From Pseudosulfitobacter koreensis (GTDB lineage: Bacteria > Pseudomonadota > Alphaproteobacteria > Rhodobacterales > Rhodobacteraceae): a stretch of 64,000 nt of DNA. Position numbers and translations under genes: made by a program. Shown one piece after another: positions 25,742-48,956 of this stretch. The first letter of the stretch is position 1; each line of letters opens with the position of its first letter. Below the pieces are notes generated by a model. That model worked only from the letters and a program-made list of their open reading frames with translations, was not told the DNA's origin and did not search any database. The stretch is from NCBI RefSeq assembly GCF_024733015.1, contig NZ_JANKJG010000005.1:124001-188000 (forward strand), written 5' to 3'.

Positions 25742-26095
25742 TTATTCGTCCCAGGGGCGCAGGTTGGCCAGCTGTTCCTCGGTCATCTTGGAGACATAGG
25801 CGGTGCCGTTGTACTCCAGGGCCTCAAGTGGCACGGCGACGTCGTCATCCTCGAAGAGATGGAAGCCGTCGAATTCGATCAGCACGCCCGCCGGAACGCC
25901 TTCGGCGTTGATCAGGATTTCCTCGACCTCGCCGATCTTCTCACCGGTGGCGGAGACCACGTCGATGTCATCGGCGCTTTGCAGGAAGGCGTCGTCACGG
26001 GTGTTCACCGGCAGGTTGGAGCCCACTTCGGCGTCCTGCGCGACTGCGGGTGCGGCAAGTGTGGCACAGAGAAAGCTGAGAATTACGGGTTTCAT
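25742..26095 (-). CDS. Exported PRC-barrel domain protein
   Basis: A 117-residue protein with a cleavable signal peptide (MKPVILSFLCATLAAPAVAQ) and a PRC-barrel domain (about residues 35-105; GEKIGEVEEILINAEG, then GVLIEFDGF). It is periplasmic or secreted. A GGAAC-N17-CGTT element 29 bp upstream places it in the presumed general-stress regulon, and a GGAG ribosome site precedes the ATG. Small exported PRC-barrel proteins are common stress-regulon members in alphaproteobacteria. No enzymatic role is known. Confidence 0.8.
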   Translation of the reverse strand: MKPVILSFLCATLAAPAVAQDAEVGSNLPVNTRDDAFLQSADDIDVVSATGEKIGEVEEILINAEGVPAGVLIEFDGFHLFEDDDVAVPLEALEYNGTAYVSKMTEEQLANLRPWDE

Positions 26096-26123
26096 GGGTC
26101 TGCTCCTTATTTCGGTAAATAAA

Positions 26124-26149
26124 AACGCGAGGGAGCTTGGGGTGGTTCC
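26124..26149 (-). promoter_or_regulatory. EcfG-type general-stress promoter (PRC-barrel gene)
   Basis: On the minus strand, GGAAC, 17 bases, CGTT: a full match to the alphaproteobacterial EcfG consensus. It ends 28 bp before the PRC-barrel start codon, in the right direction. Confidence 0.7.
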
Positions 26150-26196
26150 CCTTTAACTTGCGCGGGCCCGCGGAAAGCGTCAGCGCGCGCCTGTGC

Positions 26197-29100
26197 TTAC
26201 AGAGGAAACTGCATTTTCAGAACCAAGCCGTCCCTGGCAAATTCGGCGTCCAGCTTGCCGCCCAGTTGCTGTTCGATCTGACCCTCGACCAGCACATAGC
26301 CAAAGCCGTTCTGATCCGGCGCGTCGATCTGGGGACCGTCGCGTTCTTTCCAGTCGAGTTCCAGCACGCCCTTGGCGACGGTCCACCTGATTTCGAGCGT
26401 GCCGTCGTGGTTTGAAAGTGCGCCGTATTTGACCGCATTGGTGACCAGTTCGTGAATGACCATGCTGATCGACAGCGACTGCGAGGGGTCGAGGTTCACG
26501 TTCGGGCCGGACACGTGGAACCGGTCGGCCTCGAATATCGACAGTTCCCCATTCACGATGTCGCGCATGCCCACGGTGGTCCACGATCTTTCCGACAAAA
26601 GCCCATAGGCGCGCGCCATGCCCTGCAACCTGTTGATCAGCGTCTCGAGGACGTCCGCTTCGACCCCCTTGCCGCGCAGGGATGTCTTTACGATGGTCAC
26701 GATCACCGCCAGCATGTTCTTCACGCGGTGGTTCAGCTCGGCGATCAGTATCCTTTGCTGCTCTTCGGATTCGACCAGCGACGTCACATCGACCAGCGTG
26801 ACGATCGCTCCCTCGACCTCTTGGTTCTCGCCCAGATAGGGGGTGATCCGCACCAGGTAGTGCGACTTGTGCTCCGAGCGCGACAGGCGGTGCTCATAGA
26901 CCTCGCCGGAACTGAACACTTCGCGGATGTGTTCGCGCAGTTCGGGGTAATCGCTGACACTGGCCAGTTCGGGCAACGGCCTACCCACATCAGCGTTGCG
27001 CAGGTTGAACAGCTCGGCCGCGGCCGGGGTGAAGGTGCGGATCACCAGCTCGCCATCCAGGAACACCGTCGCGATCTGGGTCGCGTCGAACAGGTTGCGC
27101 AAATCGGCGTTGGCGCGGTCGAGATCCTCGATGTTGGTCTTGAGCTCGGCGTTGATCGTGTTCAGCTCTTCGTTGAGAGACTGCATTTCCTCTTTGGTGG
27201 CTTCAAGCTCCTCGTTCGACGACTGCGCCTCTTCGTTGACCGAGACCAGTTCCTCGTTCGAGGACTTCAGTTCCTCCAGCGCGGTCTCGTATTCTTCCAC
27301 GGTGGATTGCAGACGCTCGCGCATCTCGCGCAATTCGTGCTCCACCGCTTCACTGGCCCGCTTTCCTTCTGCCGAGGCGGGCGACGCCGTTGCAGCGGGT
27401 TCTTCTCCCAGCTGGAAGAACACGATGAACAGCGCACTGCGTTCGGTCGACCAGCGCAGGGGTTCCACCGTGATGTTCATGATCTGACCGTCACCGGTCG
27501 CGGTCGTCATCGGCAGGTTCCTGCGCGTCACCGCCCGGTGGGTTTCGGCCACTTCGCGCAGTGCGTTGCGCAGCTCGATCCTCAACTCGCGGCGCACCAT
27601 GTCCAGCAAATTGCGCGAGGGCGCACCGCGCGGCAGCTCCAGTACCGAACTGGTCCCCCCGGACACAAAGACGATTTCACCGTCCTGGCCTACCACGGCG
27701 TGCGGAGGCGTGTGGTTTTCCAGGATATGGCGCTCGATCCTGTGGCGCATCTGAATGTCCGTCAACCGATCCTGCATGTCGGTGCCCACGCTTCTGTCGG
27801 TCACCCGCTGGTTCAGGCTCATCGGGCTCCAGCGCCGGTTGCCGTGATCGCGCGCCTGAAAGATGCGGTGTTTCTTGTCGACGATGCTGAACAGGTCGTG
27901 AAACTGGCTGATGCTTTCCGAGGTGCCCAGAAACAGATAGCCATCCACCTTCAGCGCATAGTGAAAGGTGGGAATGACCTGGCGTTGCAGTTCGGGGCCG
28001 AAATAGATCAGCAGGTTGCGGCACGATACCATGTCCATACGCGAAAACGGCGGATCGCTTATGACGTTGTGGGGGGAAAAGATGCACATCTCGCGCACCT
28101 TCTTGCACACCACATAGCTTACGCCGTCCTGATGAAAGAACCGCTCGAGACGCTCGGGGCTGACGTCGCGGACCAGTTGCTCGGGGTATCGCCCCTGTCG
28201 GGCGATCGCCAATGCGGATTCGTCGATGTCGGTGGCAAAGATCTGCACCGGCGAGGTGATCGAATTGGCCTCGAGATGTTCGGTGATCAGGATGGCCAGC
28301 GAATAGACCTCTTCGCCCGTGGTGCACGCAGGCACCCAGATCCGAACCGGGTTCTTGGCATCGCGGTTCTCGCAGAGTTTCGGAATGACCTGCTCTGCGA
28401 GTGCTGCGAAGGCCTCGGTGTCGCGAAAAAAGTTGGTGACGCTGATCAACAGGTCGCGAAACAGCGATGTCACCTCCTCGCTTTCCTGTTTCAACAGCGC
28501 GCAGTAGCCTTCCAGATCGCTGATCTGGCGCACCTGCATCCGTCGGGCGACACGGCGAAAGAACGTCTTGCTCTTGTAGCCCGAAAAATCATGCCCGGTT
28601 TCATTTTGCAGGATATCGCAGATGGATTTCTGAACCTGGGGCGGATTGTCGTTCGGGTCCATGTCCTTGGCGATCACCAGCGCGTCCAGCTTGGCGCGGC
28701 TGTCGCGGATCTCGGCCAGCTTTTCGGGCATCTCTCCGGCAGGGATCGCAAAGTCGACGAACCCTGCGGCGATGGCGCTTTCCGGCATCTCGGAATTGAG
28801 CGGGCCGCCGCCATCCGCTGTCTGGGCAAAGGTCACGCCGCCGTGTTCCTTGATCACCTTGACGCCCAGCGTGCCGTCGCCGTCGCCACCCGACAGCACG
28901 ATGGCGGCGGCGTTGTCGGTCTGGTCCTCAGCCAGTGCGCTGAAGAACGTGTCGATCGGTTTGTGTTCGCGCACGCCCGGTGCCGACTTGACCAGTTTGA
29001 GCGCGCCGTTCCTGATCGTAAGGTAGCAGCGTTCGGGCATGACATAGACCGTGTCCGCCTCGACCTTGTCACCGTCGCGCGCGACCTTGACCGTCATCTC

Positions 29101-29274
29101 GGTCTTTTGTGACAGCACCGAATGCAGCAGGCTTTCGCGGTCGGGATTAAGGTGGGTCACGATGACGAACCCCATCCCGCAGCGCGGCGGAATGGCCTCC
29201 AGCAACTCGGTGATTGCGTTGATGCCGCCGGCAGAGGCACCAATTCCTACGATAAGGGGCTGATCATCGTTCAT
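26197..29274 (-). CDS. CheB-CheR-PAS-HWE histidine kinase fusion
   Basis: A 1025-residue cytoplasmic multidomain protein. Order: CheB-type methylesterase (about 1-190; GASAGG with S12-14, VTHLNPD, GGDGDGT), CheR N- and C-terminal methyltransferase domains (about 210-480; FFRDTEAF, WVPACTTGEEVYS), a long coiled coil (about 640-740), a PAS domain (about 740-835), and an HWE-family kinase core with phospho-acceptor H849 in ELNHRVKNML and the signature W-x-E (W975, E977). There is no receiver domain. HWE kinases often feed the PhyR general-stress pathway, and the gene lies among GGAAC-type promoters. The methyl-accepting partner and signal are unknown. Confidence 0.92.
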   Translation of the reverse strand: MNDDQPLIVGIGASAGGINAITELLEAIPPRCGMGFVIVTHLNPDRESLLHSVLSQKTEMTVKVARDGDKVEADTVYVMPERCYLTIRNGALKLVKSAPGVREHKPIDTFFSALAEDQTDNAAAIVLSGGDGDGTLGVKVIKEHGGVTFAQTADGGGPLNSEMPESAIAAGFVDFAIPAGEMPEKLAEIRDSRAKLDALVIAKDMDPNDNPPQVQKSICDILQNETGHDFSGYKSKTFFRRVARRMQVRQISDLEGYCALLKQESEEVTSLFRDLLISVTNFFRDTEAFAALAEQVIPKLCENRDAKNPVRIWVPACTTGEEVYSLAILITEHLEANSITSPVQIFATDIDESALAIARQGRYPEQLVRDVSPERLERFFHQDGVSYVVCKKVREMCIFSPHNVISDPPFSRMDMVSCRNLLIYFGPELQRQVIPTFHYALKVDGYLFLGTSESISQFHDLFSIVDKKHRIFQARDHGNRRWSPMSLNQRVTDRSVGTDMQDRLTDIQMRHRIERHILENHTPPHAVVGQDGEIVFVSGGTSSVLELPRGAPSRNLLDMVRRELRIELRNALREVAETHRAVTRRNLPMTTATGDGQIMNITVEPLRWSTERSALFIVFFQLGEEPAATASPASAEGKRASEAVEHELREMRERLQSTVEEYETALEELKSSNEELVSVNEEAQSSNEELEATKEEMQSLNEELNTINAELKTNIEDLDRANADLRNLFDATQIATVFLDGELVIRTFTPAAAELFNLRNADVGRPLPELASVSDYPELREHIREVFSSGEVYEHRLSRSEHKSHYLVRITPYLGENQEVEGAIVTLVDVTSLVESEEQQRILIAELNHRVKNMLAVIVTIVKTSLRGKGVEADVLETLINRLQGMARAYGLLSERSWTTVGMRDIVNGELSIFEADRFHVSGPNVNLDPSQSLSISMVIHELVTNAVKYGALSNHDGTLEIRWTVAKGVLELDWKERDGPQIDAPDQNGFGYVLVEGQIEQQLGGKLDAEFARDGLVLKMQFPL

Positions 29275-30338: not shown

Positions 30339-30363
30339 GGAACCGAAGGCCCGCTGCTCTGTT
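30339..30363 (+). promoter_or_regulatory. EcfG-type promoter (DUF421 gene)
   Basis: GGAAC (30339-30343), 16 bases, TGTT (30360-30363), 75 bp before the DUF421 start codon and in the same direction. This is one mismatch from GGAAC-N16-CGTT. Confidence 0.55.
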
Positions 30364-30437
30364 GAGACCCCAAGGCAGGGTGCGATGTGGAACATGGGCA
30401 ACCCTTGCGATCCGACACCATCAAGGGGGGTTAACAA

Positions 30438-30977
30438 ATGGAGCATTTATTTTTCGACGGGTTTGGCGATCTTGGCCGAACCTTGCTTTCGGCGTTGATC
30501 CTTTACGTCGCCGTGATCTTGTTCATTCGGATCAGCGGCAAGCGTTCGACGTCGCAGATGAACAACTTTGACTGGGTCGTGACGGTCGCCATGGGGTCGC
30601 TGATGGCCTCGGGCATCCTGCTCAAGGACATCACGATCCTGGAATCGGCCAGCGCAATCGCTGTCCTGCTGTTGATGCAATGGCTGCTGACCTTCACGAT
30701 GGTCCGCTCTGCCATGGTGGCCAAGGTCGTGCGGGCAGAGCCCACATTGCTCTATCACGACGACAGGTTCCTGACCAACGCGATGCGCCGCGAGCGGGTC
30801 AGCGAATACGAGGTGCTCTCCGCCGTGCGTGAAAACGGTGTCGTCGATCTGGCCAATGTGGAAAGCGTTATTCTCGAAGCGAACGCGGCGCTGAGCGTGC
30901 TGGAAAAGACCGACAAGAAGGTCCAAAAGCCGGCGCTGCAGGACGTGCACAGTCTGGACCCCGGCGCACTGTCATAG
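30438..30977 (+). CDS. DUF421 (YetF-like) membrane protein
   Basis: A 179-residue protein with three hydrophobic segments (about residues 13-30, 45-62 and 67-88) and a C-terminal cytosolic DUF421 domain. The family motif ISGKRSTSQMNNFDWVVTVAMGS and the SVILEANAALSVL segment are visible. Bacillus relatives act in spore or envelope stress; the mechanism is unknown. An AAGGGGGG ribosome site precedes the ATG. A GGAAC-type promoter upstream suggests general-stress control. Confidence 0.85.
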   Translation: MEHLFFDGFGDLGRTLLSALILYVAVILFIRISGKRSTSQMNNFDWVVTVAMGSLMASGILLKDITILESASAIAVLLLMQWLLTFTMVRSAMVAKVVRAEPTLLYHDDRFLTNAMRRERVSEYEVLSAVRENGVVDLANVESVILEANAALSVLEKTDKKVQKPALQDVHSLDPGALS

Positions 30978-31037: not shown

Positions 31038-31062
31038 GGAACAGATCGTCAGGCCGGACGTT
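31038..31062 (+). promoter_or_regulatory. EcfG-type promoter (second PRC-barrel gene)
   Basis: GGAAC (31038-31042), 16 bases, CGTT (31059-31062): an exact match to the general-stress consensus, 38 bp before the start codon and in the same direction. Confidence 0.72.
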
Positions 31063-31100
31063 TTTCTCACAGTTGAAACAGACGAAAAGGAGACGTGAAA

Positions 31101-31397
31101 ATGGATCATTCCACGCATACCCCCCTGCCCCCGGAAGAGCTGAACGCTTCCAATCTGGAAGGCGCCAATGTCTATGGCCCGCAGGACCACGATATCGGCA
31201 ATGTCTCGCATTTCCACGGCACCGGGCCGAATGCTCAGGTCGTCGTGGATGTGGGCGGCTTCCTTGGGATCGGCGCAAAGCCTGTTGCCCTCGATGTGTC
31301 CAGCCTGACCTTCATGCGTGACCCCAACGGCAATGTGCATGCGACGACCATGATGACCAAGGACCAGCTGAAAGAGCTGCCCGAACATCATCACTGA
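31101..31397 (+). CDS. Small soluble PRC-barrel-like protein
   Basis: A 98-residue, His-rich protein (ends PEHHH) whose middle (GPNAQVVVDVGGFLGIGAKPVALD, then SLTFMRDPNGNVHATTMMTKDQL) matches stress-type PRC-barrel proteins. There is no signal peptide, so it is probably cytosolic, unlike the exported relative 5 kb away. The ATG at 31101 lies 8 nt after AAGGAG. An exact EcfG-type promoter precedes it, and a strong terminator follows, so it is a one-gene unit. Confidence 0.75.
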   Translation: MDHSTHTPLPPEELNASNLEGANVYGPQDHDIGNVSHFHGTGPNAQVVVDVGGFLGIGAKPVALDVSSLTFMRDPNGNVHATTMMTKDQLKELPEHHH

Positions 31398-31426
31398 TCG
31401 GGCGCACCAGCGCTGACGCCATCCCC

Positions 31427-31459
31427 CCCCGGCATCCATCAGGCGCCGGGGGTTTTTTG
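31427..31459 (+). terminator. Terminator after PRC-barrel-like gene
   Basis: Stem CCCCCGGC (31427-31434) and GCCGGGGG (31446-31453) followed by TTTTTT. It lies between convergent genes, just before the glycosyltransferase stop. Confidence 0.85.
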
Positions 31460-31464
31460 TGTCA

Positions 31465-32469
31465 TCAGGTCAGCCGCCGTTCTCGCATTCCCATCGCGCC
31501 GCCCTGCGCTGCGGGTGCAGTCGCAGGCAGTTGCGCAGGCTCCGCCCCCGTCCCGGGCTGGCCAAAGTGATCCAGAACATGGCCAAGCCGCGCGATCTGC
31601 GCTGGCAGGTCCGAAGGCCGCAGGCACTGTTCCGGCGGCAATTCCGGCGGCCACACGGGCAAGGTGCCGCGCGCGGCATGCTCCAGCAGCCAGCGCACGG
31701 GCGGCAAGGTGTCATCAATGCGGAAATCCGGGTTGGAGAGACGGCCTTTGATGGTCTGGGCCATCCCGCCCTCGGCGCGCCCCGTCAACCGGCACGACGC
31801 GGCCACGCGCACATCCGCCACATGCCCGACCTTCATCCCGTTGTGCCGCATCCGGCGCACCAGATCGCGGTCTTCGCCCGTGCGGCGGTCGGAAAAGCCA
31901 CCGACAGCGCAATAGGCCCCCAGCCCGAAGGCCAGACTTGCCCCCGGCGTCTCGCCGTGATGCGGCAGCGGATTGTGCGGCTCGGGGTGGATTGCATCGT
32001 AGAACCGCAGGACCAGCGCGCGGTAGGTCGCTTCCTTCCAGCCGTCCTGAGCGGGAATATGCCTCAGGATGTCACGCTCTTCGGGCATCGGATCGACGGC
32101 ACCGCAGACCGCATCGAAGGCATTCAGATGCTGCCGGTTGCGCGCGACCCAATCGGGTGCCACGACGCAATCGGCATCGGTGGTCAGAAGCGACCGCAGC
32201 GCGGGGGCCGCCCGGATGGCCATCTCGCAGCCCATGCGCCGCGCCGTCCCCACGCCCTGATCAGCGCGCAACTCAAGGTTGGCCACCAGCAGGCCCGGTC
32301 CGGGCAATGCCGCGCGCGCCGCGGCTTCGGTCTGATCGGTGCAGTTGTTGGCAACCACCACGACCAGCGTGTCGCAGCCCAGTTGCGGCGCAAGGGACCG
32401 CAGGCAGGTGCCGATGCGGCGCTCTTCGTTACGGGCGGGAATGATGATCGCACTGTCGATCCTGCGCAT
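31465..32469 (-). CDS. Family 2 glycosyltransferase
   Basis: A 334-residue GT-A-fold enzyme. It has the N-terminal IIIPARNEERRIGTCL, the metal-binding DxD as DADC in LLTTDADCVVAPDW, and the acidic GEDRDLVRRM near residue 205. Donor and acceptor are unknown. It is the last of four overlapping genes (acyl-CoA-dehydrogenase-like, PIG-L, NodS-like, this one). The ATG at 32469 shares an ATGA with the stop of the methyltransferase. The context points to assembly of a small glycosylated, N-acylated compound or envelope decoration. Confidence 0.85.
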   Translation of the reverse strand: MRRIDSAIIIPARNEERRIGTCLRSLAPQLGCDTLVVVVANNCTDQTEAAARAALPGPGLLVANLELRADQGVGTARRMGCEMAIRAAPALRSLLTTDADCVVAPDWVARNRQHLNAFDAVCGAVDPMPEERDILRHIPAQDGWKEATYRALVLRFYDAIHPEPHNPLPHHGETPGASLAFGLGAYCAVGGFSDRRTGEDRDLVRRMRHNGMKVGHVADVRVAASCRLTGRAEGGMAQTIKGRLSNPDFRIDDTLPPVRWLLEHAARGTLPVWPPELPPEQCLRPSDLPAQIARLGHVLDHFGQPGTGAEPAQLPATAPAAQGGAMGMRERRLT

Positions 32470-33041
32470 CACGCGTCCCCCCGCCCAAGGCGACGGTCGA
32501 TCCGGTAATCGGCGGTGCGCATGACCGGCGACAGCGGCACATCGAACGCCGCGTTGAACGCCTCCAGCGCCTGCGCACCCGTCAGGCTGTGCCCGGTGTC
32601 GCCCAGCCACGTCACGCAGAGCACCTCGGCCCGAGGCCACCTTGCGTCGATCTGGCCAGCCAGCCGTGCCAGCGCGGACCGGTCGAGAAAATAGAGGATC
32701 TCGGACAGCACGATCAGATCGAACGTCTCCCCCGTGACCTCGCCGGGCAAATCATCAGGCACCCAGCCCTGAACAAACCGCGCCGCCGGAACGGCCTCTT
32801 GCGCCGCGCGCACCGCACGCGCAACCGCATCTACGCCGGTATAGGCCGCGCAAAGCGGCGCAAGATGTCTTGCCAATGCCCCGTTGCCGCAGCCCAATTC
32901 AAGCGCGTGGGCATAATCCGCGCGACCCAACGCTTCCCGCGTCGCAGCGAATTTATCCTGCTCATAGCGGCTGGTGCGGAAATTCCACGGATCGTCCGTG
33001 TCCGCATAAAGCTGATCCAGGTGGCTGGGCTCGACGGTCAT
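32469..33041 (-). CDS. NodS-like SAM-dependent methyltransferase
   Basis: A 190-residue class I methyltransferase of the NodS family. The N-terminal DDPWNFRTSRYEQDKFAATREAL is typical, and the SAM-binding motif I is ELGCGNGALARHL (about residues 47-59). NodS N-methylates a deacetylated chitin oligosaccharide in rhizobia. Here it follows a PIG-L-type deacetylase and precedes a glycosyltransferase, the same chemistry in order. It overlaps both neighbours (ATGA junctions). Substrate: unknown, presumably an amino sugar. Confidence 0.85.
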   Translation of the reverse strand: MTVEPSHLDQLYADTDDPWNFRTSRYEQDKFAATREALGRADYAHALELGCGNGALARHLAPLCAAYTGVDAVARAVRAAQEAVPAARFVQGWVPDDLPGEVTGETFDLIVLSEILYFLDRSALARLAGQIDARWPRAEVLCVTWLGDTGHSLTGAQALEAFNAAFDVPLSPVMRTADYRIDRRLGRGDA

Positions 33042-33745
33042 GGCGTGCCCTCAAAGTAGATTTCCGGCTCGATGATGAAAAAGCGGACAAAATCGCGGTC
33101 TAGGGTGAAACCTGTCGGATCATCCTTGACGATTCCGCCCAACTGGCTGGCATGGGCGTTCACCGCGCGGTGCTTTGCGTCGGACCAGGCCTGCGTATCG
33201 AACACCCGTGCTGCGGCAGGCTGATGGGCCGTGCGGTACTGCGGGTCGTGCCAGCGCGACCAGACCGGATAATACCAAAGCCGCGTGTCGGGGCGCATGG
33301 CGACCAGCGCGGCGGCGACGGCGGCGGTCGCCTCGTGGTCGCAATGCGGGTCCTGGGCCGAGGCCGCAAAGATCGTCCGTGCCCCCACCCTGTCACACAG
33401 CGCCGAAATCTGATCGCGGAGCAGATCCTGATCGACCGACGCCAGCTGCGTGTCAGGATGGCCCAGAAACGTTACATCGCCCGGCGCGCACCCCAGCCGC
33501 TTCAGCGCCTCCAGCATTTCCGAGCGGCGCTGCGCTGCCAGCCGGCCATCGGCCCATTGCACCGAGTTGGGATGCGAGCCCGCGCCGTCGGTCATCGAGA
33601 CCACATGCACCGCAATCCCGTTCGCACGGCACGCGGCGATCAGCCCGCCGCACCCAAGGCTTTCGTCGTCGGGATGAGGCGCCAGTATGATGATGGGGTC
33701 GCCCCCCGTCAGATCGTTCAGCGTGGCCGAAGTGGCGTCTGTCAT
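33038..33745 (-). CDS. PIG-L/LmbE family deacetylase
   Basis: A 235-residue zinc-dependent N-deacetylase of the LmbE/PIG-L fold. The motif APHPDDESLGCGG (about residues 22-34) supplies the His, Asp and Asp of the zinc site, and DPHCDHEAT supplies the later His. Members remove acetyl from GlcNAc-type substrates. It is joined by 4-bp overlaps to the acyl-CoA-dehydrogenase-like gene upstream and the NodS-like gene downstream. It probably frees an amine that the next enzyme methylates. Confidence 0.88.
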   Translation of the reverse strand: MTDATSATLNDLTGGDPIIILAPHPDDESLGCGGLIAACRANGIAVHVVSMTDGAGSHPNSVQWADGRLAAQRRSEMLEALKRLGCAPGDVTFLGHPDTQLASVDQDLLRDQISALCDRVGARTIFAASAQDPHCDHEATAAVAAALVAMRPDTRLWYYPVWSRWHDPQYRTAHQPAAARVFDTQAWSDAKHRAVNAHASQLGGIVKDDPTGFTLDRDFVRFFIIEPEIYFEGTP

Positions 33746-34818: not shown

Positions 34819-35024
34819 CCGGCGTCTCGCGGTCTTGCAGGACGCAGGTGAACGGCGATACCGTCATTCTGCGCCGGGTCATGTTTCAACGATGCTAAGC
34901 GACACGCCACCGCATCGGCTTAAGCCAAGTTAAAATGCGCGAAACTAATATGTGTTCCATATTTTTCATGCGTTTAGCGAATTTTGTAAGGCTACGTGCC
35001 GGAACCCCTGGCGCGCGCAGGGAA

Positions 35025-35047
35025 ATGCCCCACGAACTGTGGGGCAT
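35025..35047. terminator. Perfect hairpin after the molybdenum hydroxylase operon
   Basis: ATGCCCCAC-gaact-GTGGGGCAT lies 50 bp beyond the stop of the large subunit (minus strand). The T-tract is poor, so termination may be partial. The surrounding 278-bp gap (34819-35096) shows no other element I can support. Confidence 0.5.
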
Positions 35048-35096
35048 CGAAGGGATCAAGACACCGGCCTGCGACACCGGATTCACTGTCAGACGC

Positions 35097-38769: not shown

Positions 38770-38875
38770 GCCTCGCTCCAGCGTTGTCCGTCGTTGTGGA
38801 TCGAACGCATCGCGAAACGGTTTTGTTCACAATAAGTCTGAATACGCGGATGACCGACGTATTACCGGGTGCGCC

Positions 38876-39295: not shown

Positions 39296-39313
39296 CTGTT
39301 GCTCCTGACTGCG

Positions 39314-41089: not shown

Positions 41090-41118
41090 GAAATCTCTCT
41101 TTCGTATTTGAAGTTCCG

Positions 41119-41847
41119 TCAGCGCAGGATGTCGGCCAGCCACTCCGCAAAGGCGGGGATTGACGGCAGTCGGTGACTGGCATCCGTTGCGCCTTCGCCG
41201 ATCTTGATCCCGATCCCGCCAAGGCTTTGCGCCATGCGAAAACCATCCTCGTCGGTCACGTCATCGCCCACCATCACCGGCGTCCTGCCTGCAAATGGCG
41301 CTGTCTTGGCGAAAGCCGCGATGGCCGTGCCCTTGTCGCAGGCGCGCTGGGCCAGTTCACTGACCATCTTGCCATGCACCGCGCGGTAGCGGTCGTCGCC
41401 AGACACCAAACCGTCGATCAGCGCCTTGCATTCCGCCTCGTATTCAGGTGCCGAGCGGTAGTGCAGCGCGACCGATCCCGGCTTTTGCTCGGCCAGCAGG
41501 CCACGTTGTGTTGCGAATTCGGCGATAATATGTACCACATCCGGTGCAATCTCGCCGGAAGGTGCAACCGCATCCGCGCCTCCGCCGCGCAGTTCCTGCC
41601 CGTGCGATCCGGCTGCAGGCAATTCCAACGGGCTGATCAGCCTGTCGATGTCGTCGAGCGACCGGCCCGAGACGACCGCCACCGCGCCATTGGTCTGCAC
41701 AGACAGACGCCGGATCAGATCCTTCATGGTATCTGCGATCATCGCCTGTTCGGGGCGTGCCACGATCTCGGCGAGCGTTCCGTCCAGATCCAGAAAGAAC
41801 GCGTGGTCGCTGCAGGTGATGACGGGGGGAGTAGACCTATCTGGCAT
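41119..41847 (-). CDS. otsB: Trehalose-6-phosphate phosphatase
   Basis: A 242-residue HAD-superfamily phosphatase that makes trehalose from trehalose-6-phosphate. The catalytic motif I is FLDLDGTLAEI (about residues 17-27), and motif IV is MVGDDVTDEDGF near residue 195; the trehalose-type SGRSLDD lies between. It forms an operon with the GH15 and VOC genes and is divergent from the topoisomerase IB gene. The synthase otsA lies on the other side of that gene, in the opposite direction. Confidence 0.93.
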   Translation of the reverse strand: MPDRSTPPVITCSDHAFFLDLDGTLAEIVARPEQAMIADTMKDLIRRLSVQTNGAVAVVSGRSLDDIDRLISPLELPAAGSHGQELRGGGADAVAPSGEIAPDVVHIIAEFATQRGLLAEQKPGSVALHYRSAPEYEAECKALIDGLVSGDDRYRAVHGKMVSELAQRACDKGTAIAAFAKTAPFAGRTPVMVGDDVTDEDGFRMAQSLGGIGIKIGEGATDASHRLPSIPAFAEWLADILR

Positions 41848-41999
41848 GGTACAAATTTCTATTCTGGCATGCGAATTCCGCAGGCATGTGTTACCGAAAC
41901 CCGCGTTTCCGACCGTCGGGCTTTCCCTGCATTAACTATCGCCACGGCAATGAAATGCAACCAGTCGGCGCGCGCGCAGCCAACGCCGCGTCGCTTTGC

Positions 42000-42024
42000 G
42001 GAACCTTCAACGTCGACGGGGGTT
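42000..42024 (+). promoter_or_regulatory. EcfG-type promoter (topoisomerase IB gene)
   Basis: GGAAC (42000-42004), 16 bases, GGTT (42021-42024), upstream of topoisomerase IB in the same direction. This is one mismatch from GGAAC-N16-CGTT. It also supports a translation start downstream of about 42030. Confidence 0.55.
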
Positions 42025-42081
42025 TGGCATGACGTGGCAGATGACATGCGCCGCGAAGCTCAGCAGACAGGCAGCCGACAG

Positions 42082-43080
42082 ATGACCGCGACACCCTCGC
42101 TTAGATACTACCCCGACAAGCGCCCCGGCATCACACGCCAGCGCTGCGGACGCGGGTTCACCTATTTCGCGCAGGACGGCACCCGCATCACCGACAAGGC
42201 AGAGCGCGCGCGCCTGAACGCACTGGCAGTGCCGCCCGCATACGAAAACGTATGGATATGCCCCTTCGAAAACGGCCACCTGCAGGCCACGGGCTATGAT
42301 CCGCGCGGTCGCAAGCAATACCGCTATCATCCGGCATGGAGTGCGGCACAATCCCAGACCAAATTCGCGGGCCTTGCGGACTTCGGTGCGGCCCTGCCCC
42401 GCTTGCGGCGCGCGATCCTGCGCGATCTGCACAGCGAGGCGGGCGCGCAGCGCTTCGCGCTGGCCGCTGCCGTGGCGATGATCGACAGGCTGTCGCTGCG
42501 CGTGGGAAACCCCGAATACACCAAGACCAACGGCTCTTTCGGCACCCTGACGCTGAAAGGCCAGCACGTGCGGCTGCGCGACGACAAGCTGGAGGTATCG
42601 TTTCGCGCCAAGGGCGGAAAACGCGTGCGCCGCCAGATCGCCGACAAGACGCTGTTGCGCGTTTTGGGAGAAATTCGCGAATTGCCCGGTGCCGAGCTTT
42701 TGGCGTGGCTTGGGACGGACGGCACACCCCACACGCTGACCTCGGCGGCGCTGAACGACTATATCGCCGAGAGGTCCGGCACCGACGGCGTGACGGCCAA
42801 GACGTTCCGTACGTGGTCGGGCACCGTGGCCGCGTTCAAGGTGGCGATGCAGACCGACGCGCCGCGTATCAAGGACATGGCCGAGGCCGCCGCCGAACGT
42901 CTGAACAACACGCCCACCATCGCGCGCAGCAGCTATATTCACCCCGATGTTCTGGATCTGTGCACCACGCCGCAGCCCCTGCCACAGGCGCGCTCGCAGG
43001 ACGGTCTGACCCAGCCCGAACAGCGGCTGCTGGCCTTTCTGAACCGGGACCAGGAAGGGCTTCAAGACCCGGTGACGTGA
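42082..43080 (+). CDS. DNA topoisomerase IB (poxvirus type)
   Basis: A 332-residue type IB topoisomerase of the bacterial/poxvirus group, which relaxes supercoils by nicking one strand through a 3'-phosphotyrosine. The N-terminal domain starts YYPDKRPGITRQRCGRGF, the catalytic domain has LSLRVGNPEYTKTNGSFG and KTFRTWSGT, and the active Tyr is in ARSSYIHPDVLD. Starts at 42082 and 42046 are both possible; I use 42082, nearest the family N-terminus. A GGAAC-type promoter precedes it. It lies between otsB and otsA. Confidence 0.9.
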   Translation: MTATPSLRYYPDKRPGITRQRCGRGFTYFAQDGTRITDKAERARLNALAVPPAYENVWICPFENGHLQATGYDPRGRKQYRYHPAWSAAQSQTKFAGLADFGAALPRLRRAILRDLHSEAGAQRFALAAAVAMIDRLSLRVGNPEYTKTNGSFGTLTLKGQHVRLRDDKLEVSFRAKGGKRVRRQIADKTLLRVLGEIRELPGAELLAWLGTDGTPHTLTSAALNDYIAERSGTDGVTAKTFRTWSGTVAAFKVAMQTDAPRIKDMAEAAAERLNNTPTIARSSYIHPDVLDLCTTPQPLPQARSQDGLTQPEQRLLAFLNRDQEGLQDPVT

Positions 43081-43236
43081 CGGGAATGCCCCCGATCCGA
43101 TCACTTTCAATTGAACTTTTTTTGGGCACGGTTGTTTCCCTTATAGGCGGAATTTGGGTGGATATGCCAAGACGGGCCTCCCACGATCCGATTTTCCGCA
43201 CCGTGAACATGTGCGACCAAATGGGGAAAAGAGAAG

Positions 43237-44643
43237 ATGTCCGGCAAGCTCATCGTTGTGTCCAACCGCATACCTACAGCGGCCACACCATCAGGCGGGC
43301 TTGTTTTTGCACTGCACGAGACGCTGCGCAAAACCGGCGGCATCTGGATCGGATCGGACCCCGAGTTTCAGGCCGACCCCTCTGACACGCTCAAGGAAAT
43401 CGGCGATCAGTCCACCTATCAGCGGCTGGCATTCGAGATGTCCGAAACGGATTACCAGACTTTTTACCTGGGCTTTGCGAACTCGGTGCTGTGGCCCGTC
43501 TGCCACCGGCGCGGAGACCTCGTGCAGATGAGCCGCCGGTTCGAGGAAGGCTACCGCAGGGTCAACAAGCGCCTCGCCCGGCAAATCTTTGAGGTGGCAG
43601 GGCCCGAGGACATGATCTGGGTCCACGACTACCACTTTTTCCCGCTGGCCGCCGACCTGCGCGAACTTGGGTTCGAGGGCAAGATCGGTTTCTTCCTGCA
43701 CATCCCCTTTCCGGCGCTGGGCGACATGGGGGCGCTGCCGCCATCGGCGAACCTGGCGCACTGGCTGGCCGACTATGATCTGGTCGGGCTTCAGACCCGG
43801 TCGGACGTGGCGCGCTGCCTCGAGATGTTCCGGTCGGAACTGGGCGCCGAACTGATGCACGACGGCAAGATCAAATACGGCGAACGCCGCGTCGGTGTGC
43901 GGTCTTTCCCCATCGGCATCGACGTCGAGGCCTTTGTCGCCACCGCCGAGAAATCCACCAACCGCGAGGAAATCGCCAAGGATCTGTCAGGCGAACTGAT
44001 CATAGGCGTTGACCGATTGGATTATTCCAAGGGGCTGCCGAACCGTTTCCGCGCCTTTGGCCGCTATCTGGAAACCCGCAAGGACAAGGAACGCCGCCCC
44101 AGCCTGCTGCAGATCGCACCGCCCACCCGCGAGGAAGTCAGCGCCTACCGCGACATCCGTTTCGAGCTGGAAGAGCTGGCCGGACGTCTGAACGGCGAGA
44201 ATGCCGAACTGGACTGGACCCCGCTGCGCTATATCCACCGCAACATAGACCGCGATGTCCTGGCGAAACTGTTCCGCACCGCGCGGGTCGGGTTCGTCAC
44301 ACCCTTTGCCGACGGCATGAACCTTGTGGCCAAGGAATACATCGCGGCCCAGGACCCCGAAGACCCCGGCGTTCTGGTCCTGTCACGCATGGCGGGTGCC
44401 GCCGAGGACATGACCGAGGCGCTGTTGGTCAACCCCTACGACATCGAAGAGATGAGCGAGGCACTGGCACAGGCGCTCGATATGCCGCTGGAGGAACGGC
44501 AGGCCAGATACACCGCCTGCATGAAACGCGTCCGCGCCACCGACGTGGGCCGCTGGAGCGAGAACTATCTGAACGCGCTGAAAGACAGCCGCCGGGATCT
44601 GTCATGGAGCAGTTTCAACGAACGCCACAAGAACAGTGCATGA
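43237..44643 (+). CDS. otsA: Alpha,alpha-trehalose-phosphate synthase
   Basis: A 468-residue GT20 enzyme that joins UDP-glucose and glucose-6-phosphate to trehalose-6-phosphate. Family motifs are LIVVSNRIP at the start, [16 protein letters not shown] (about residue 130), [12 protein letters not shown] (about residue 253) and the late [17 protein letters not shown]. Length and order match OtsA. It runs in the direction of topoisomerase IB and is followed by a terminator. With otsB it provides osmotic and desiccation protection. Confidence 0.95.
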
Positions 44644-44657
44644 GTGTGCCCGCGACG

Positions 44658-44679
44658 GGCGGTGAACCGCCGGTTTTTT
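44658..44679 (+). terminator. Terminator of otsA
   Basis: Stem GGCGG-tgaa-CCGCC followed by GG and six T, 15 bp after the otsA stop. Confidence 0.8.
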
Positions 44680-44701
44680 CACGCACCGTACAGTGCCGAC
44701 T

Positions 44702-44726
44702 GGAACAACCGCAGCCTCCACGTGTT
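44702..44726 (+). promoter_or_regulatory. EcfG-type promoter (small membrane peptide / DUF883 unit)
   Basis: GGAAC (44702-44706), 16 bases, TGTT (44723-44726), 43 bp before the 22-residue peptide gene and in the same direction. Confidence 0.6.
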
Positions 44727-44769
44727 GGGTCTTCACAACTAGTTGACTGAACACGAAAGGAAAAACCTC

Positions 44770-44838
44770 ATGCACGGCATTTTCTACCTGATCGGCCTCA
44801 TCGTGGTCGTTCTCGCAGTTCTGAACCTCTTATTCTAA
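44770..44838 (+). CDS. 22-residue single-helix membrane peptide
   Basis: The frame reads MHGIFYLIGLIVVVLAVLNLLF, then stop (broken here as MHGIFYLIGLI and VVVLAVLNLLF). It is one unbroken hydrophobic helix, with a GAAAGGAAA ribosome site 6 nt before the ATG. It sits between a general-stress-type promoter and the DUF883-like gene, whose own ribosome site starts directly after the stop. It is probably a real inner-membrane micropeptide. The family is unnamed as far as I can tell. Confidence 0.6.
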   Translation: MHGIFYLIGLIVVVLAVLNLLF

Positions 44839-44852
44839 GAAAGGAAGTCACC

Positions 44853-45425
44853 ATGACGACCACTGGAAACACACCGAAGTCTCAGGGCGAGACCTTGAAG
44901 CAGGACGCGAAAAAAGCCGCTGCTTCGACATCGGAAGACATCAAGTCAGAGGCCCGCAAAGCGGCAGACACCGTGTCGGCCCAAGCCTCGGGCTATGCCG
45001 ACCAGGCCAAGCAAACCGCTGCCGACGAGGTGAAGGACGTGGCCTCGGCGCTGCGCACGGCGGCTGACGAGTTGCGCAGCGGATCGCCGCAGGAACGCAC
45101 CTTCAGCCAGATCGCCGATGGGCTGGCCGACGCATCTGACGCCGTGCGCGGCAAGGATCTGTCGGAAATCGTCAACGATGTGAATGGGTTCGCCAAACGC
45201 AATCCGCTGATGTTCCTGGGTGGTGCCGCGCTGGTCGGATTTGCCGCCACGCGCTTCGCCAAGGCATCGGGCACATCTGGCCGCGGTTACGACCGTACAG
45301 CCACCGGCGCCGCGTCGACCGGACGCAGCACCGGCATGGACCGTCCCGCACCCGCCCCCACACGCAGCCCCGTCGCCGGGTCCACACCCGCCGCACCACG
45401 CGTTGAAACCGGAGGAAAATCATGA
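44853..45425 (+). CDS. DUF883-like stress protein
   Basis: A 190-residue protein. The N-terminal 100 residues are a charged, Ala-rich amphipathic helix region like DUF883/ElaB and late-embryogenesis-type proteins (QASGYADQAKQTAADEVKDVAS). One hydrophobic segment follows at about 112-128 (NPLMFLGGAALVGFAATRFA), then a low-complexity Pro/Thr/Ser tail. It is likely anchored in the inner membrane; ElaB relatives bind ribosomes. It overlaps the Holin-X gene by ATGA. Confidence 0.75.
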   Translation: MTTTGNTPKSQGETLKQDAKKAAASTSEDIKSEARKAADTVSAQASGYADQAKQTAADEVKDVASALRTAADELRSGSPQERTFSQIADGLADASDAVRGKDLSEIVNDVNGFAKRNPLMFLGGAALVGFAATRFAKASGTSGRGYDRTATGAASTGRSTGMDRPAPAPTRSPVAGSTPAAPRVETGGKS

Positions 45426-45820
45426 CCACCGATCCCAAACAATCCACAGGCGGCCTGCTGAGCGAAGCATTGTCCCACGTCAGTTCGCTGATGCGCAGCG
45501 AGGTCGATCTGGCCCGCGCCGAGATCGACGAGAACCTCAAGGCCGCAGGACTGGCCATCGGCATGATCGTCGGTGCCGTTGTCGTTGCACTGACCGCGCT
45601 AAACGTGCTGTCCGCAGCCCTCGTGGCCGCGCTGACCGAGGCTGGCATCGACGCCGGCTGGTCCGCTCTGATCGTCGGCCTGCTCTTGGGCATCATCGCC
45701 TATGTGATGGCCAACAAGGGCACCAGCGATCTGAAACTCAAGAGCCTTGCACCCAACCGCACGGCCAAGAACGTCAAGCGCGATGCGCAAACATTGAAGG
45801 AGGTCTACGATGACAAATGA
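45422..45820 (+). CDS. Holin-X (DUF1469-type) membrane protein
   Basis: A 132-residue protein of the 'phage holin family/Actinobacterial Holin-X' type. The N-terminal amphipathic part (SHVSSLMRSEVDLARAEI) is followed by two membrane helices (about residues 42-68 and 77-98). Despite the name there is no phage context; in alphaproteobacteria these occur with DUF883 and DUF3618 genes in stress units. It overlaps both neighbours (4 bp before, 11 bp after). Confidence 0.85.
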   Translation: MTTDPKQSTGGLLSEALSHVSSLMRSEVDLARAEIDENLKAAGLAIGMIVGAVVVALTALNVLSAALVAALTEAGIDAGWSALIVGLLLGIIAYVMANKGTSDLKLKSLAPNRTAKNVKRDAQTLKEVYDDK

Positions 45821-47054
45821 CTCCAGAAGCTCAGACCAAATCGAACGCGATATCGAGCGTGAACGCGAAGGCCTCGCCCATACCCTGGACGACCTGCAAG
45901 ACAGGTTCTCCATCGAAGGCATCGCCCGCCAGTTCTCGGACCAGTTCCGCGAGCACGGCGGCGACTTTGGCCGCTCGGTTTCCGAGGCAGTCAAGCAGAA
46001 CCCGGTGGCCCTGGCGGTCACAGGCGCAGGCCTTGCCTGGCTGATGTTCGGCGGAAGCTCCAAATCGGACGACCGCTACGAACGGCGCGACCGCGGATAT
46101 GATCGCAATTACGACCGGGTCAATCCCGTCGATCCCTACCGCGACCGCAACCGTGATCGCGACGTGCAGTCGGACCCCTATTCCGAACGCTACCGTCGCA
46201 CGGCACCGACGCCCGGCACCATGGAAGAGCACTCACGCCCCCGCACCACTACGGTGCCAAGCTGGGCACGCGGCACGACCGAGGATGACCACGACGACCT
46301 GTCCGACCGCGCCCGCTCTGCGGCCTCGCGCGCATCGGGCAGCGTGTCTGGTGCGGCATCGTCCGCGTCTCACGGTGCGTCGAGTGCCGCCTCTTCGGTT
46401 GCCGGGTCCGCCCGCAGCGCAGGCGCGTCCGTCGCCGGTGGGGCACGGTCGGCACGGGATTCCGCGTCGAACGCCGGTCGCTCCGTCGCCGACGGCGTGC
46501 GCAACACCGCAAGCTCTGCCGCAGACCGCGCCGCCGCCATGCGCGCGCGCCTGAGCGAAGGCACCGAAGCGCTGAGCGAACAGGCACGCGAGCGTGTCAT
46601 TGCAGCACGCGAACGTGCAATGGAGGCATGGCAGGCCACGGGCCGTTACTCGCAATACGGACGCGAGCGTGCAGCCGACATGTTCGAAGAGCATCCACTT
46701 GTCGCAGGTGCCTTGGCGCTGGCGTTGGGTGCCGCAGTCGGCGCGTCCCTGCCCCGCAGTCGCACCGAGGACGCCTATATGGGCGAAACCAGCGATGCAC
46801 TCTTTGACGAGGCGGAACGTATCTACGCCGAGGAAAAGGAAAAGCTGGGCAAGGTCGCCGCTGCCGCGACTGACGAGGCGAAAAACATCGCCCGTGAAAC
46901 CAAGGATGAGGCGGACAGCAAGGCCGATGCCGACAACGCGGCGCAAGACGTGGCCAACAAGGCCGCCGACAAGGCCAAGGAATCCGGCCAGCGCGTCGCG
47001 GACGCTGCCAAAAGCGAAGCCGACAAGCAAAACCTCGGCGACGTGAAGAAGTAG
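45810..47054 (+). CDS. DUF3618-domain membrane-associated protein
   Basis: A 414-residue protein. The DUF3618 domain is at residues 8-60 (SDQIERDIEREREGLAHTLDDLQDRF). A short hydrophobic segment follows at about 68-85 (ALAVTGAGLAWLMFGGS), then a long disordered Ser/Ala/Arg-rich middle, a second hydrophobic stretch near residue 300 (VAGALALALGAAVGASLP), and a C-terminal Ala/Lys/Asp-rich helix resembling LEA-type repeats. It is the last gene of the DUF883-Holin-X-DUF3618 unit. Role: probably envelope organisation under stress; unproven. Confidence 0.78.
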   Translation: MTNDSRSSDQIERDIEREREGLAHTLDDLQDRFSIEGIARQFSDQFREHGGDFGRSVSEAVKQNPVALAVTGAGLAWLMFGGSSKSDDRYERRDRGYDRNYDRVNPVDPYRDRNRDRDVQSDPYSERYRRTAPTPGTMEEHSRPRTTTVPSWARGTTEDDHDDLSDRARSAASRASGSVSGAASSASHGASSAASSVAGSARSAGASVAGGARSARDSASNAGRSVADGVRNTASSAADRAAAMRARLSEGTEALSEQARERVIAARERAMEAWQATGRYSQYGRERAADMFEEHPLVAGALALALGAAVGASLPRSRTEDAYMGETSDALFDEAERIYAEEKEKLGKVAAAATDEAKNIARETKDEADSKADADNAAQDVANKAADKAKESGQRVADAAKSEADKQNLGDVKK

Positions 47055-47070
47055 GCCGAACCGAAACAGT

Positions 47071-47099
47071 GGCCTGCCCCTGATAACCGGGGGCAGGCC
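47071..47099 (+). terminator. Hairpin after DUF3618 gene
   Basis: Perfect stem GGCCTGCCCC (47071-47080) and GGGGCAGGCC (47090-47099) without a clear T-tract, between the DUF3618 gene and the YihY gene. Confidence 0.55.
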
Positions 47100-47118
47100 G
47101 CAGCACGAAAGGTATCCC

Positions 47119-48063
47119 ATGACGCGCGGACGCGATGCACAGACCCCGAAAGAAATTCCCGCAAAAGGCTGGAAAGACATCCTTTACCGGGTGAAGGATG
47201 AAATTGCCGCTGACCACCTGTCGCTGATCGCGGCAGGTGTTGCTTTTTATGCGCTGCTGGCGCTGTTTCCGGCGATCACCGCATTGATGGCGCTGGCGGG
47301 TCTGCTGGTCGAGCCATCGCAGATCACCGGGCAGATCGAAAGCCTGGCCGCCGTGATGCCGCAAGAGGCCGCGACGATCATTCTGGATCAGGCGGTCGCG
47401 GTGACGGGATCAGAGGAAAGTGGCCTCGGATGGGCGTTCGCCCTGGGTCTGGGCCTTGCGCTCTATTCCGCGTCCAAGGGCATGTCGAGCCTGATGGAAG
47501 GGCTGAACGTCGTATATGACGAGGAGGAAAAACGCGGTTTCGTCAAACGCACGATGTGGACGCTGGGCCTGACGCTCTTGCTGATCGTGGGCCTGATCTG
47601 CGGACTGACGGCCGCCTTGGCCCTGCCAGTGATCATCAGCGTGTTCGGCCTGCCCGTCTGGCTTGAAAATCTGCTGGCTTATGGCCGCTGGGTGTTGCTT
47701 GCCGCGCTCTCGATCACGGGCCTCGCCGTGCTCTACCGCTTTGGCCCCTCGCGCGACAACGCCCGGTGGAAATGGCTGACTCCGGGCACGATGATCGCCT
47801 GCGCGATGTGGCTGTTGGCCTCGGTCGGATTCTCGATTTACGTCAGCAACTTCGGCAGCTACAACGAAACCTTTGGCAGCATGGCAGGCGCGATCATCCT
47901 GCTGATGTGGCTGTGGATTTCCGCATTTATCATCCTGATCGGGGCCGAGTTCAATTCCGAGATGGAGGCGCAGACCAGTGTCGACAGCACCACCGGAGAG
48001 CCGCAGCCCGCAGGTGAGCGCGGCGCGCGCAAGGCCGACAAGCTGGGCGAGGCACAGGTCTAG
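47119..48063 (+). CDS. YihY/BrkB-family inner-membrane protein
   Basis: A 314-residue protein with about six hydrophobic segments. The family N-terminus DHLSLIAAGVAFYALLALFPAI and the late motif FGSMAGAIILLMWLWISAFIILIGAEFN are clear. YihY/BrkB proteins were once called ribonuclease BN; the true function is unknown, possibly transport. It has its own AAAGG ribosome site and lies between the stress-protein unit and ku. Confidence 0.87.
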   Translation: MTRGRDAQTPKEIPAKGWKDILYRVKDEIAADHLSLIAAGVAFYALLALFPAITALMALAGLLVEPSQITGQIESLAAVMPQEAATIILDQAVAVTGSEESGLGWAFALGLGLALYSASKGMSSLMEGLNVVYDEEEKRGFVKRTMWTLGLTLLLIVGLICGLTAALALPVIISVFGLPVWLENLLAYGRWVLLAALSITGLAVLYRFGPSRDNARWKWLTPGTMIACAMWLLASVGFSIYVSNFGSYNETFGSMAGAIILLMWLWISAFIILIGAEFNSEMEAQTSVDSTTGEPQPAGERGARKADKLGEAQV

Positions 48064-48075
48064 TACCTGCCTACA

Positions 48076-48101
48076 GGAACCAAGCCCCACCCGACGGGGT
48101 T
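48076..48101 (+). promoter_or_regulatory. EcfG-type promoter (ku-ligD)
   Basis: GGAAC (48076-48080), 17 bases, GGTT (48098-48101), 30 bp before the ku start codon and in the same direction. One mismatch in the -10 part. Confidence 0.55.
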
Positions 48102-48131
48102 TTCCCGCCAAGCCATAACAAGGAGAGACCT

Positions 48132-48956
48132 ATGGCACCGCGCGCGCTTTGGAAAGGACAGCTTCGCCTGTCACTGGTGTCGATCCCGGTCGAGATATTC
48201 TCGGCCACCAAGACAGGCGCACGCGTGTCCTTTCGCCAGATCCACCAGCCCTCGGGCAAGCGCGTCCGCTACGAGAAATCGGTGCCCGGCATCGGCCCGG
48301 TCAAGAGCGGCGACATCGTAAAAGGGTACGAAACTGGCGATGATCAGTACATATTACTGGACCCCGAAGAGATCGACGCGATCAAGCTGGAAACCAAGAA
48401 GACCTTTGAGCTGGTGCAATTTGTCGACGCCAGCGAGATCGCGCCGCTCTATTACGACAAGCCCTACTACATCTCGGCCTCGGACGACTTGGCGCAGGAC
48501 GCCTACCGCGTGATCCGCGACGCGCTGCGCAGCGCGAACAAGGTGGGCCTGGGCCAAGTCACGATGCGCGGCAAGGAATATCTGGCCGCCGTCAAACCCT
48601 GCGGTGACGGACTGCTGATGGAGACGCTGCACTACGCCGACGAATTGCGCGATGCCGACGATCTGTTCACCGACATCAAGGACGCGAAAACCGACGCCGA
48701 ACTGCTCGAGGTCGCGACCTCGCTGATCGACCGCAAGACGGCGCCTTTCGATGCCGCTGCCTATACCGACAAATACGCCGAAGCGATGCAGGAACTGCTG
48801 AACGCCAAGATGAAGAACAAGAAGACCCCGCGCGTGAACGCCAGCGACGACACGTCAGAGCAGGGCGACAACGTGGTCGACCTGATGAGCGCGCTGAAGG
48901 AAAGCCTGAAAGAGGCCAAGACCAAGAAAAAGCCAGCCCGTAAAAAGGCATCGTGA
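48132..48956 (+). CDS. ku: Ku protein (non-homologous end joining)
   Basis: A 274-residue bacterial Ku. It forms a homodimer ring on DNA ends and recruits LigD. The N-terminal APRALWKGQLRLSLVSIPVEIF and the YYDKPYYI segment are typical, as is the Lys-rich C-terminal tail (KTKKKPARKKAS) that aids DNA binding. Its stop overlaps the ligD start (TGATG). A GGAAC-type promoter upstream agrees with stationary-phase or general-stress control of end joining reported in rhizobia. Confidence 0.95.
   Translation: MAPRALWKGQLRLSLVSIPVEIFSATKTGARVSFRQIHQPSGKRVRYEKSVPGIGPVKSGDIVKGYETGDDQYILLDPEEIDAIKLETKKTFELVQFVDASEIAPLYYDKPYYISASDDLAQDAYRVIRDALRSANKVGLGQVTMRGKEYLAAVKPCGDGLLMETLHYADELRDADDLFTDIKDAKTDAELLEVATSLIDRKTAPFDAAAYTDKYAEAMQELLNAKMKNKKTPRVNASDDTSEQGDNVVDLMSALKESLKEAKTKKKPARKKAS

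Follow-up and report, generated by a model that had tools for sequence, protein, structure and literature searches.

The locus described here raises the question of whether a set of short, similar promoter elements places a series of genes under EcfG, the sigma factor that acts as master regulator of the general stress response in Alphaproteobacteria. The locus lies in a stretch of 64,000 nucleotides from Pseudosulfitobacter koreensis (hereafter the window; contig NZ_JANKJG010000005.1, positions 124,001 to 188,000), which belongs to a 3.48-Mb draft genome that is 89.9% complete. An initial annotation, made from the sequence alone, had pointed to six GGAAC-N16/17-(C/G/T)GTT elements in front of genes for two PRC-barrel proteins (PRC1 and PRC2), a YetF/DUF421 membrane protein, topoisomerase IB, an operon of small proteins and ku-ligD, and had proposed common EcfG control. 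The analysis below indicates that the six elements are, with high probability, promoters read by RNA polymerase carrying EcfG. That they are general-stress promoters is very likely as judged from the sequence, with a high likelihood for five of them and a moderate one for the sixth, which precedes ku.

Each of the six strings was found in the window where the annotation had placed it, with respect to both position and strand. The EcfG-type promoter of PRC1 is on the minus strand at 26124–26149 (GGAAC-N17-CGTT, 28 bases to the start codon), and the others are on the plus strand. These are the promoter of the yetF/DUF421 gene at 30339–30363 (GGAAC-N16-TGTT, 74 bases), that of PRC2 at 31038–31062 (GGAAC-N16-CGTT, 38 bases), that of topoisomerase IB at 42000–42024 (GGAAC-N16-GGTT, 57 bases), that of the micropeptide/Holin-X/DUF3618 operon at 44702–44726 (GGAAC-N16-TGTT, 43 bases), and the putative promoter of ku-ligD at 48076–48101 (GGAAC-N17-GGTT, 30 bases), which is the least certain of the six. 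The −10 boxes comprise two copies each of CGTT, TGTT, and GGTT, and the two exact matches to the EcfG consensus that had been claimed are the CGTT elements at 26124–26149 and 31038–31062. All six carry the motif and face a start codon less than about 100 bp away; the measured gap of 28–74 bp agrees with the 20–80 bp proposed earlier. Genes were called with a codon-usage gene finder trained on the genes of the window, which ignores open reading frames (ORFs) of fewer than 30 residues; for the 44702 site its gap of 126 bases is the distance to the next long ORF, and an ORF of 22 residues starts 43 bases behind the site.

A scan of the whole window with GGAAC-N16/17-NGTT gave 10 matches, namely the six non-coding elements facing starts and four sites inside genes. 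The non-coding upstream DNA of the window comprises 43 segments with 5817 bases in total. There, GGAAC-N16/17-[CGT]GTT matched six times, whereas 2000 dinucleotide shuffles of the same segments gave 0.153 matches on average, three at most, and never six (0/2000). Shuffled upstream DNA, which the annotation had named as a possible refutation, is thus not equally rich in matches. The reversed reading of these segments gave one match, and the opposite strand gave two.

The regulators of the system are encoded in the same genome, which by Pfam contains PhyR, NepR, and an extracytoplasmic function (ECF) sigma factor next to nepR. NepR passes its Pfam cut-off and occurs once; its gene adjoins that of the ECF sigma factor and is divergent from phyR. 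By its position and domains, we take this sigma gene to be that of EcfG. The gap between nepR and phyR holds the motif twice, in interlocked and divergent orientation and with the −10 boxes CGTT and TGTT, the latter on the nepR side. At least one motif site precedes nepR in 30 of 31 nepR loci, the exception (L024) being cut by a contig end, and the interlocked pair is present in 25 of the 31. In these face-to-face promoters (L001:1683-1714 and the gaps of L002 to L031), the −10 box of one promoter lies inside the opposite-strand −35 region of the other. Because the core nepR-phyR promoters themselves carry TGTT beside CGTT, −10 boxes other than CGTT are normal for the EcfG system. Flexible −10 boxes are also reported for Sphingopyxis granuli in the available text of PMC7083833.

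The sites recur in relatives while their spacers drift. Among five other genomes of the genus, the two with a close YetF (G299 and G296) were read, and both have an exact site before PRC1 (spacer identity 4/16 and 6/16, respectively), before yetF (TGTT in G299 and CGTT in G296), and before PRC2 (CGTT in G299 and GGTT in G296). Before the topoisomerase IB gene, the one relative read there, a Sulfitobacter metagenome-assembled genome (MAG; L087), has an exact GGTT site. Before the micropeptide, an exact TGTT site is present in both relatives read, L087 and G296. Across the recurring sites, the spacers are identical at 4–12 of 16 positions, so that for PRC1, YetF, PRC2, topoisomerase IB, and the micropeptide a site is retained at the equivalent place with a drifting spacer.

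Over the family as a whole, topoisomerase IB and Ku orthologues have sites in numbers well beyond those of shuffles (for Ku, see below). Within 200 bp upstream of topoisomerase IB orthologues, 13 of 29 loci have an exact site, compared with a shuffle mean of 0.10 and a maximum of 2; the opposite strand and the reversed reading both gave 0. For Holin-X, 20 of 28 loci have an exact site within 1000 bp upstream (0.58 on average and at most 3 in shuffles; 3 on the opposite strand and 0 in the reversed reading). Several loci without a site show, by eye, near-matches or an 18-nt spacer, and these were left uncounted. At six of the 13 topoisomerase IB sites (L135, L138, L140, L148, L152, and L153), the −10 box ends 8–11 bp before the ATG, and the mRNA would therefore be leaderless or nearly so.

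The distribution of the genes was compared with that of the core regulators in 295 genomes of the family, with one genome per genus code. We take the family to be Rhodobacteraceae, because Sulfitobacter and other Rhodobacteraceae are the closest named relatives in the Ku scan and in gene content. The searches used a threshold of E ≤ 1e-20 for Ku, topoisomerase IB, and PhyR and one of E ≤ 1e-8 for Holin-X, so that remoter relatives may be missed. NepR was found in 139 genomes, PhyR in 140, Ku in 33, topoisomerase IB in 53, Holin-X in 62, and the photosynthetic reaction-centre genes (puf), used as a control, in 122. Every carrier of the three tested genes is PhyR-positive (topoisomerase IB 53/53, Ku 33/33, and Holin-X 62/62), with Fisher p values, which treat genomes as independent, of 2e-12 for Ku, 1e-20 for topoisomerase IB, and 9e-25 for Holin-X. 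The puf control shows no link (59/122 PhyR-positive, p 0.81). Of the 140 PhyR genomes, 89 carry one or more of these three genes, and 51 have none.

The PhyR and NepR sets are nearly equal, with 138 genomes in common, two with PhyR only, and one with NepR only. False absence of NepR through a divergent NepR-like protein, such as that of Rhodobacter sphaeroides (PMC5830050), was considered as an explanation and set aside, as the PhyR search gave nearly the same set of genomes. When scored by NepR, topoisomerase IB has a single exception, a PhyR-positive genome that is 64% complete (G196). The second PhyR-only genome, G031, retains the receiver part alone (G031:C20:32578-32949, 73% identity over residues 148–271), which may be what is left of a core that was lost. 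Among the genomes compared, a distance to nepR of 20 kb or less was counted for Holin-X in at least 26 of 61, for topoisomerase IB in at least 9 of 52, and for Ku in at least 1 of 32.

Shared ancestry was considered as a cause of the co-occurrence. To this end, 60 genomes were chosen for a tree of an rpoB segment, which holds 56 of them; G000 and G077 gave no match, and those of G024 and G027 were partial. On this tree the NepR label changes 20 times (shuffled mean 19.1), and at least 12 of the changes are forced by well supported branches. In 12 pairs that differ in NepR on such branches, with means taken over 200 pairings, topoisomerase IB differed the same way in 6.4 pairs and the other way in 0 (median p 0.031), Holin-X in 6.5 and 0 (p 0.016), and Ku in 3.8 and 0, which is not significant (p 0.125). 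For puf the values were 0.1 the same way and 6.6 the other way, which reflects the choice of rows. Gene carriers were deliberately included among the NepR-positive rows, and the puf table supplied 22 of the 30 NepR-negative ones; because the rows were hand-picked, the proper puf control is the table of 295 genomes.

The core is present in under half of the sampled genera and scattered over the tree. That the general stress response is optional in the family, and that gains and losses of its dedicated effectors (topoisomerase IB, non-homologous end joining (NHEJ), and the Holin-X/micropeptide operon) coincide with those of the core, as one evolutionary module, is a proposal for which we consider the case evenly balanced. 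If it is true, bacterial topoisomerase IB and NHEJ would be purely general-stress functions in this family. The 154 of 295 genomes with neither PhyR nor NepR can be regarded as natural "knock-outs".

Several observations weigh against common EcfG control. The consensus CGTT is present in just two of the six sites. When GGAAC-N16/17-CGTT is sought over the whole genome, as the annotation had suggested, 80 matches are obtained compared with 86 for the reversed control, so that the CGTT motif by itself is not over-represented. The sites of the relatives were sought with the exact pattern; their eight core letters are identical by construction, and it is the presence of a site at that place that counts. 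No exact site is found in 16 of the 29 topoisomerase IB upstream regions or in 25 of the 43 used from a set of named Ku loci. Further points of this kind concern ku: raised opposite-strand matches in both sets of Ku loci (7/27 and 8/43), a predicted hairpin (7-pair stem at 48082–48102, then U residues) that the element at 48076–48101 overlaps, Sulfitobacter loci (L034, L035, L037, and L044) in which ku follows yihY by 10–16 bp with no room for a promoter, and a different upstream element in the other nearest Ku relatives.

The genome-wide result is clarified by where the matches lie. Outside the window there are 78 CGTT matches, of which 44 lie at most 300 bp upstream of a gene and face it, and four face a 3' end; three more are otherwise intergenic and 27 intragenic, in stretches that are 86% coding. 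The signal is carried by the position of the CGTT matches and not by their number. Ten of the 44 downstream genes, picked by eye because they look typical of such regulons, were scanned against Pfam. Eight pass the cut-offs (CsbD, Transgly_assoc, DUF1328, MgtC, Pyrid_ox_like, Pmp3, AI-2E transporter, and DUF7218), one falls slightly under it (DUF883_C), and one has no Pfam match. In the available text of PMC7083833, csbD also belongs to the Sphingopyxis granuli regulon.

The annotation had further described the six sites as a cluster that marks a locus. This description is supported in part. Six sites in 22 kb are dense, with a Poisson P of about 8e-6 that presupposes a CGTT share of 0.65, is post hoc, and deserves little weight. 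A unique cluster is unsupported when CGTT sites alone are counted, as the locus then has two and a region of contig C17 has four in 9.4 kb. The window scan found no GGAAC-N16/17-NGTT match from 31062 to 42000, and because of this stretch the word "dispersed", also used in the annotation, is apt.

The ku site is the weakest of the six. Exact upstream sites were found in 7 of 27 unnamed Ku loci (shuffle mean 0.13, maximum 2; reversed 1) and in 18 of the 43 named loci (shuffle mean 0.22, maximum 3; reversed 2). The unnamed set had 30 loci, of which our own, L105, and L116 were left out; 15 of the 58 named loci, from other phyla or partial or truncated, were also left out, and the two sets overlap, with L059 and L104, for example, having the same upstream DNA. 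The raised opposite-strand counts may stem from divergent stress genes.

It is possible, but in our view unlikely, that five sites are EcfG promoters and that the sixth is part of a terminator or attenuator hairpin behind yihY, with ku-ligD read through from the micropeptide promoter. The predicted stem with its following U residues would fit this explanation, as would the four Sulfitobacter loci with ku close behind yihY, three of which have a CGTT site ahead of the operon. However, the fold of the 66-nt segment (−14.7 kcal/mol) is no better than that of shuffled sequences (z −0.48; 66 of 200 shuffles were as good), and a terminator scan of 41000–49000 did not list the hairpin. In addition, the exact site is placed 23–59 bp before the start in 16 of the 18 named Ku loci that have one. 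Under read-through, too, ku would stay under EcfG, and whether by its own site or by read-through, EcfG control of ku would be retained.

Other arrangements upstream of ku were also seen. The different element, GTGGAAC followed by a CTATAT.CTT-like string and without an EcfG −10 box, was found in L036, L039, L041, L042, L043, L047, L060, and L091, and YetF-like and Crp-like genes stand near ku in L036, L039, L042, L043, and L060. In the Sulfitobacter MAG (L087:10001-10267), the gene order is the same and ku-ligD is mostly missing; matches are limited to the N-terminus of Ku and the C-terminus of LigD, and the remainder of ku is not preceded by an EcfG site. In one genome (G220:C402:3936-5540), the starts of nepR and ku are at most 0.8 kb apart.

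The six elements could also be real promoters that serve a different ECF sigma factor whose −35 box is similar. According to the available text of PMC7083833, ECF sigma factors as a class keep AAC in the −35 box, but the same motif stands at the core nepR-phyR promoters and the three tested genes are confined to PhyR-positive genomes, which makes this explanation very improbable. That the six are chance matches in G+C-rich DNA, picked out by the annotator's eye, has been rejected as least probable of all, for although the motif is short and its exact CGTT form does not exceed the reversed control genome-wide, no shuffle reached six sites and exact sites with drifted spacers occupy equivalent places in relatives for all but our own ku site. 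Common EcfG control, which the annotation had deduced, is strongly supported by the sequence because the genome has the core with like promoters of its own, because sites recur while spacers drift, and because the three tested genes occur only with the core.

The NepR/PhyR/EcfG switch is known from other Alphaproteobacteria and is summarised in the available text of PMC5830050. In unstressed cells NepR would hold EcfG; under stress, phosphorylated PhyR would remove NepR, and EcfG would turn on the genes of the six promoters. The predicted output consists of two PRC-barrel proteins, YetF, topoisomerase IB, possibly together with the trehalose-6-phosphate synthase OtsA, the small-envelope-protein operon led by the 22-residue peptide, and Ku-LigD. 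EcfG binding, induction, and co-transcription at these genes are what we infer from the comparisons above.

Most of the gene labels in the annotation were upheld by Pfam. PRC1 (25742–26095, minus strand, 117 residues) matches PF05239 with an E value of 2.5e-7, and PRC2 (31101–31397, plus strand as are all following genes unless noted, 98 residues) matches the same family with 21.4 bits against a cut-off of 21.2. The YetF/DUF421 protein (30438–30977, 179 residues) matches PF04239 and PF20730. Topoisomerase IB (42082–43080, 332 residues, start by gene finder) matches both Top1B_N_bact (PF21338) and the Topoisom_I catalytic core (PF01028) when scanned from 42064. OtsA (43237–44643, PF00982) starts 156 bases behind the topoisomerase IB gene. 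The window site scan gave no exact EcfG site of its own upstream of OtsA, which may be co-transcribed from the topoisomerase IB promoter. Within the locus, trehalose-related genes (GH15/trehalase-like, OtsB, and OtsA) lie at 39314–44643, and none of them has its own exact EcfG site. In G296, the genes for PRC1, YetF, PRC2, GH15, OtsB, and OtsA are close together, and no site precedes OtsA.

The first ORF of the small-protein operon encodes the hydrophobic micropeptide of 22 residues (44770–44838). Judged by eye, 12 of the 30 Holin-X loci, our own included, encode a similar peptide behind the site. This recurrent first ORF behind an EcfG site encodes a hydrophobic peptide of 22–24 residues, and in G285 (L119) a similar ORF, read by eye, lies directly before ku. 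The next protein (44853–45425) had been labelled DUF883, a label that did not stand, as no Pfam DUF883 match was found at E ≤ 0.01. It is followed by a Holin-X family membrane protein (45422–45820, PF07332), a DUF3618 protein (45810–47054, PF12277), and a YihY/BrkB family membrane protein (47119–48063, PF03631). The NHEJ end-binding protein Ku (48132–48956, PF02735) adjoins LigD (48956–51406), in which Pfam finds ligase, polymerase, and phosphoesterase domains. A CheB-CheR-PAS-HWE histidine kinase (26197–29274, minus strand, Pfam) stands between PRC1 and a Crp/Fnr gene, with the same neighbours and order in G299 (L155). Elsewhere, kinases of the HWE type provide input to the general stress response, and for this reason the kinase is a candidate general-stress sensor.

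To our knowledge, the in vivo role of bacterial topoisomerase IB is poorly known. In this locus the same type of promoter is common to topoisomerase IB, NHEJ, and an envelope operon about which little is known, and within the sample all three are confined to genomes that bear the core.

Comparison with known systems places these results as follows, as far as the available text of each source goes. Rhodobacter sphaeroides, as a Rhodobacter relative, resembles the present case in that phyR is grouped with an ecfG-like sigma gene and a NepR-like gene, but the role of its PhyR is a narrow one, in membrane stress (PMC5830050). Its NepR-like protein is 25% identical to NepR, whereas the NepR of the present genome passes the Pfam cut-off. 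According to the authors of that study, no earlier work had analysed PhyR in stress responses within the Rhodobacterales (PMC5830050). In Sphingopyxis granuli TFA, ku-ligD and csbD are named as directly regulated by the general stress response, and the motif is GGAAC-N16-CGTT with a flexible −10 box, but that strain has two EcfG paralogues, and the word "topoisomerase" is absent from the main text (PMC7083833). The EcfG regulon of Sphingomonas melonis Fr1 (PMC6599016) lists topoisomerase IB, with a putative site 24 nt before the coding sequence that ends in CATT, and a PRC-barrel domain gene, with a site at 27 nt that ends in GGTT. Both are EcfG-dependent there, with the motif GGAAC-N17-20-GTT; in contrast to the present locus, the organism belongs to another family, the −10 box of its topoisomerase IB gene is not GTT, and the available text mentions no comparable gene grouping. 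Among the titles and abstract openings found in searches of the open-licence EcfG and PhyR literature on Rhodobacter, Rhodobacterales, and Rhodobacteraceae, and of the sigma-factor literature on Sulfitobacter, none treats a family-wide distribution or this co-occurrence. EcfG control of topoisomerase IB, PRC-barrel, and ku-ligD genes has thus already been published for sphingomonads (PMC6599016, PMC7083833), and the new part is the confinement of topoisomerase IB, NHEJ, and the Holin-X operon to core-bearing genomes.

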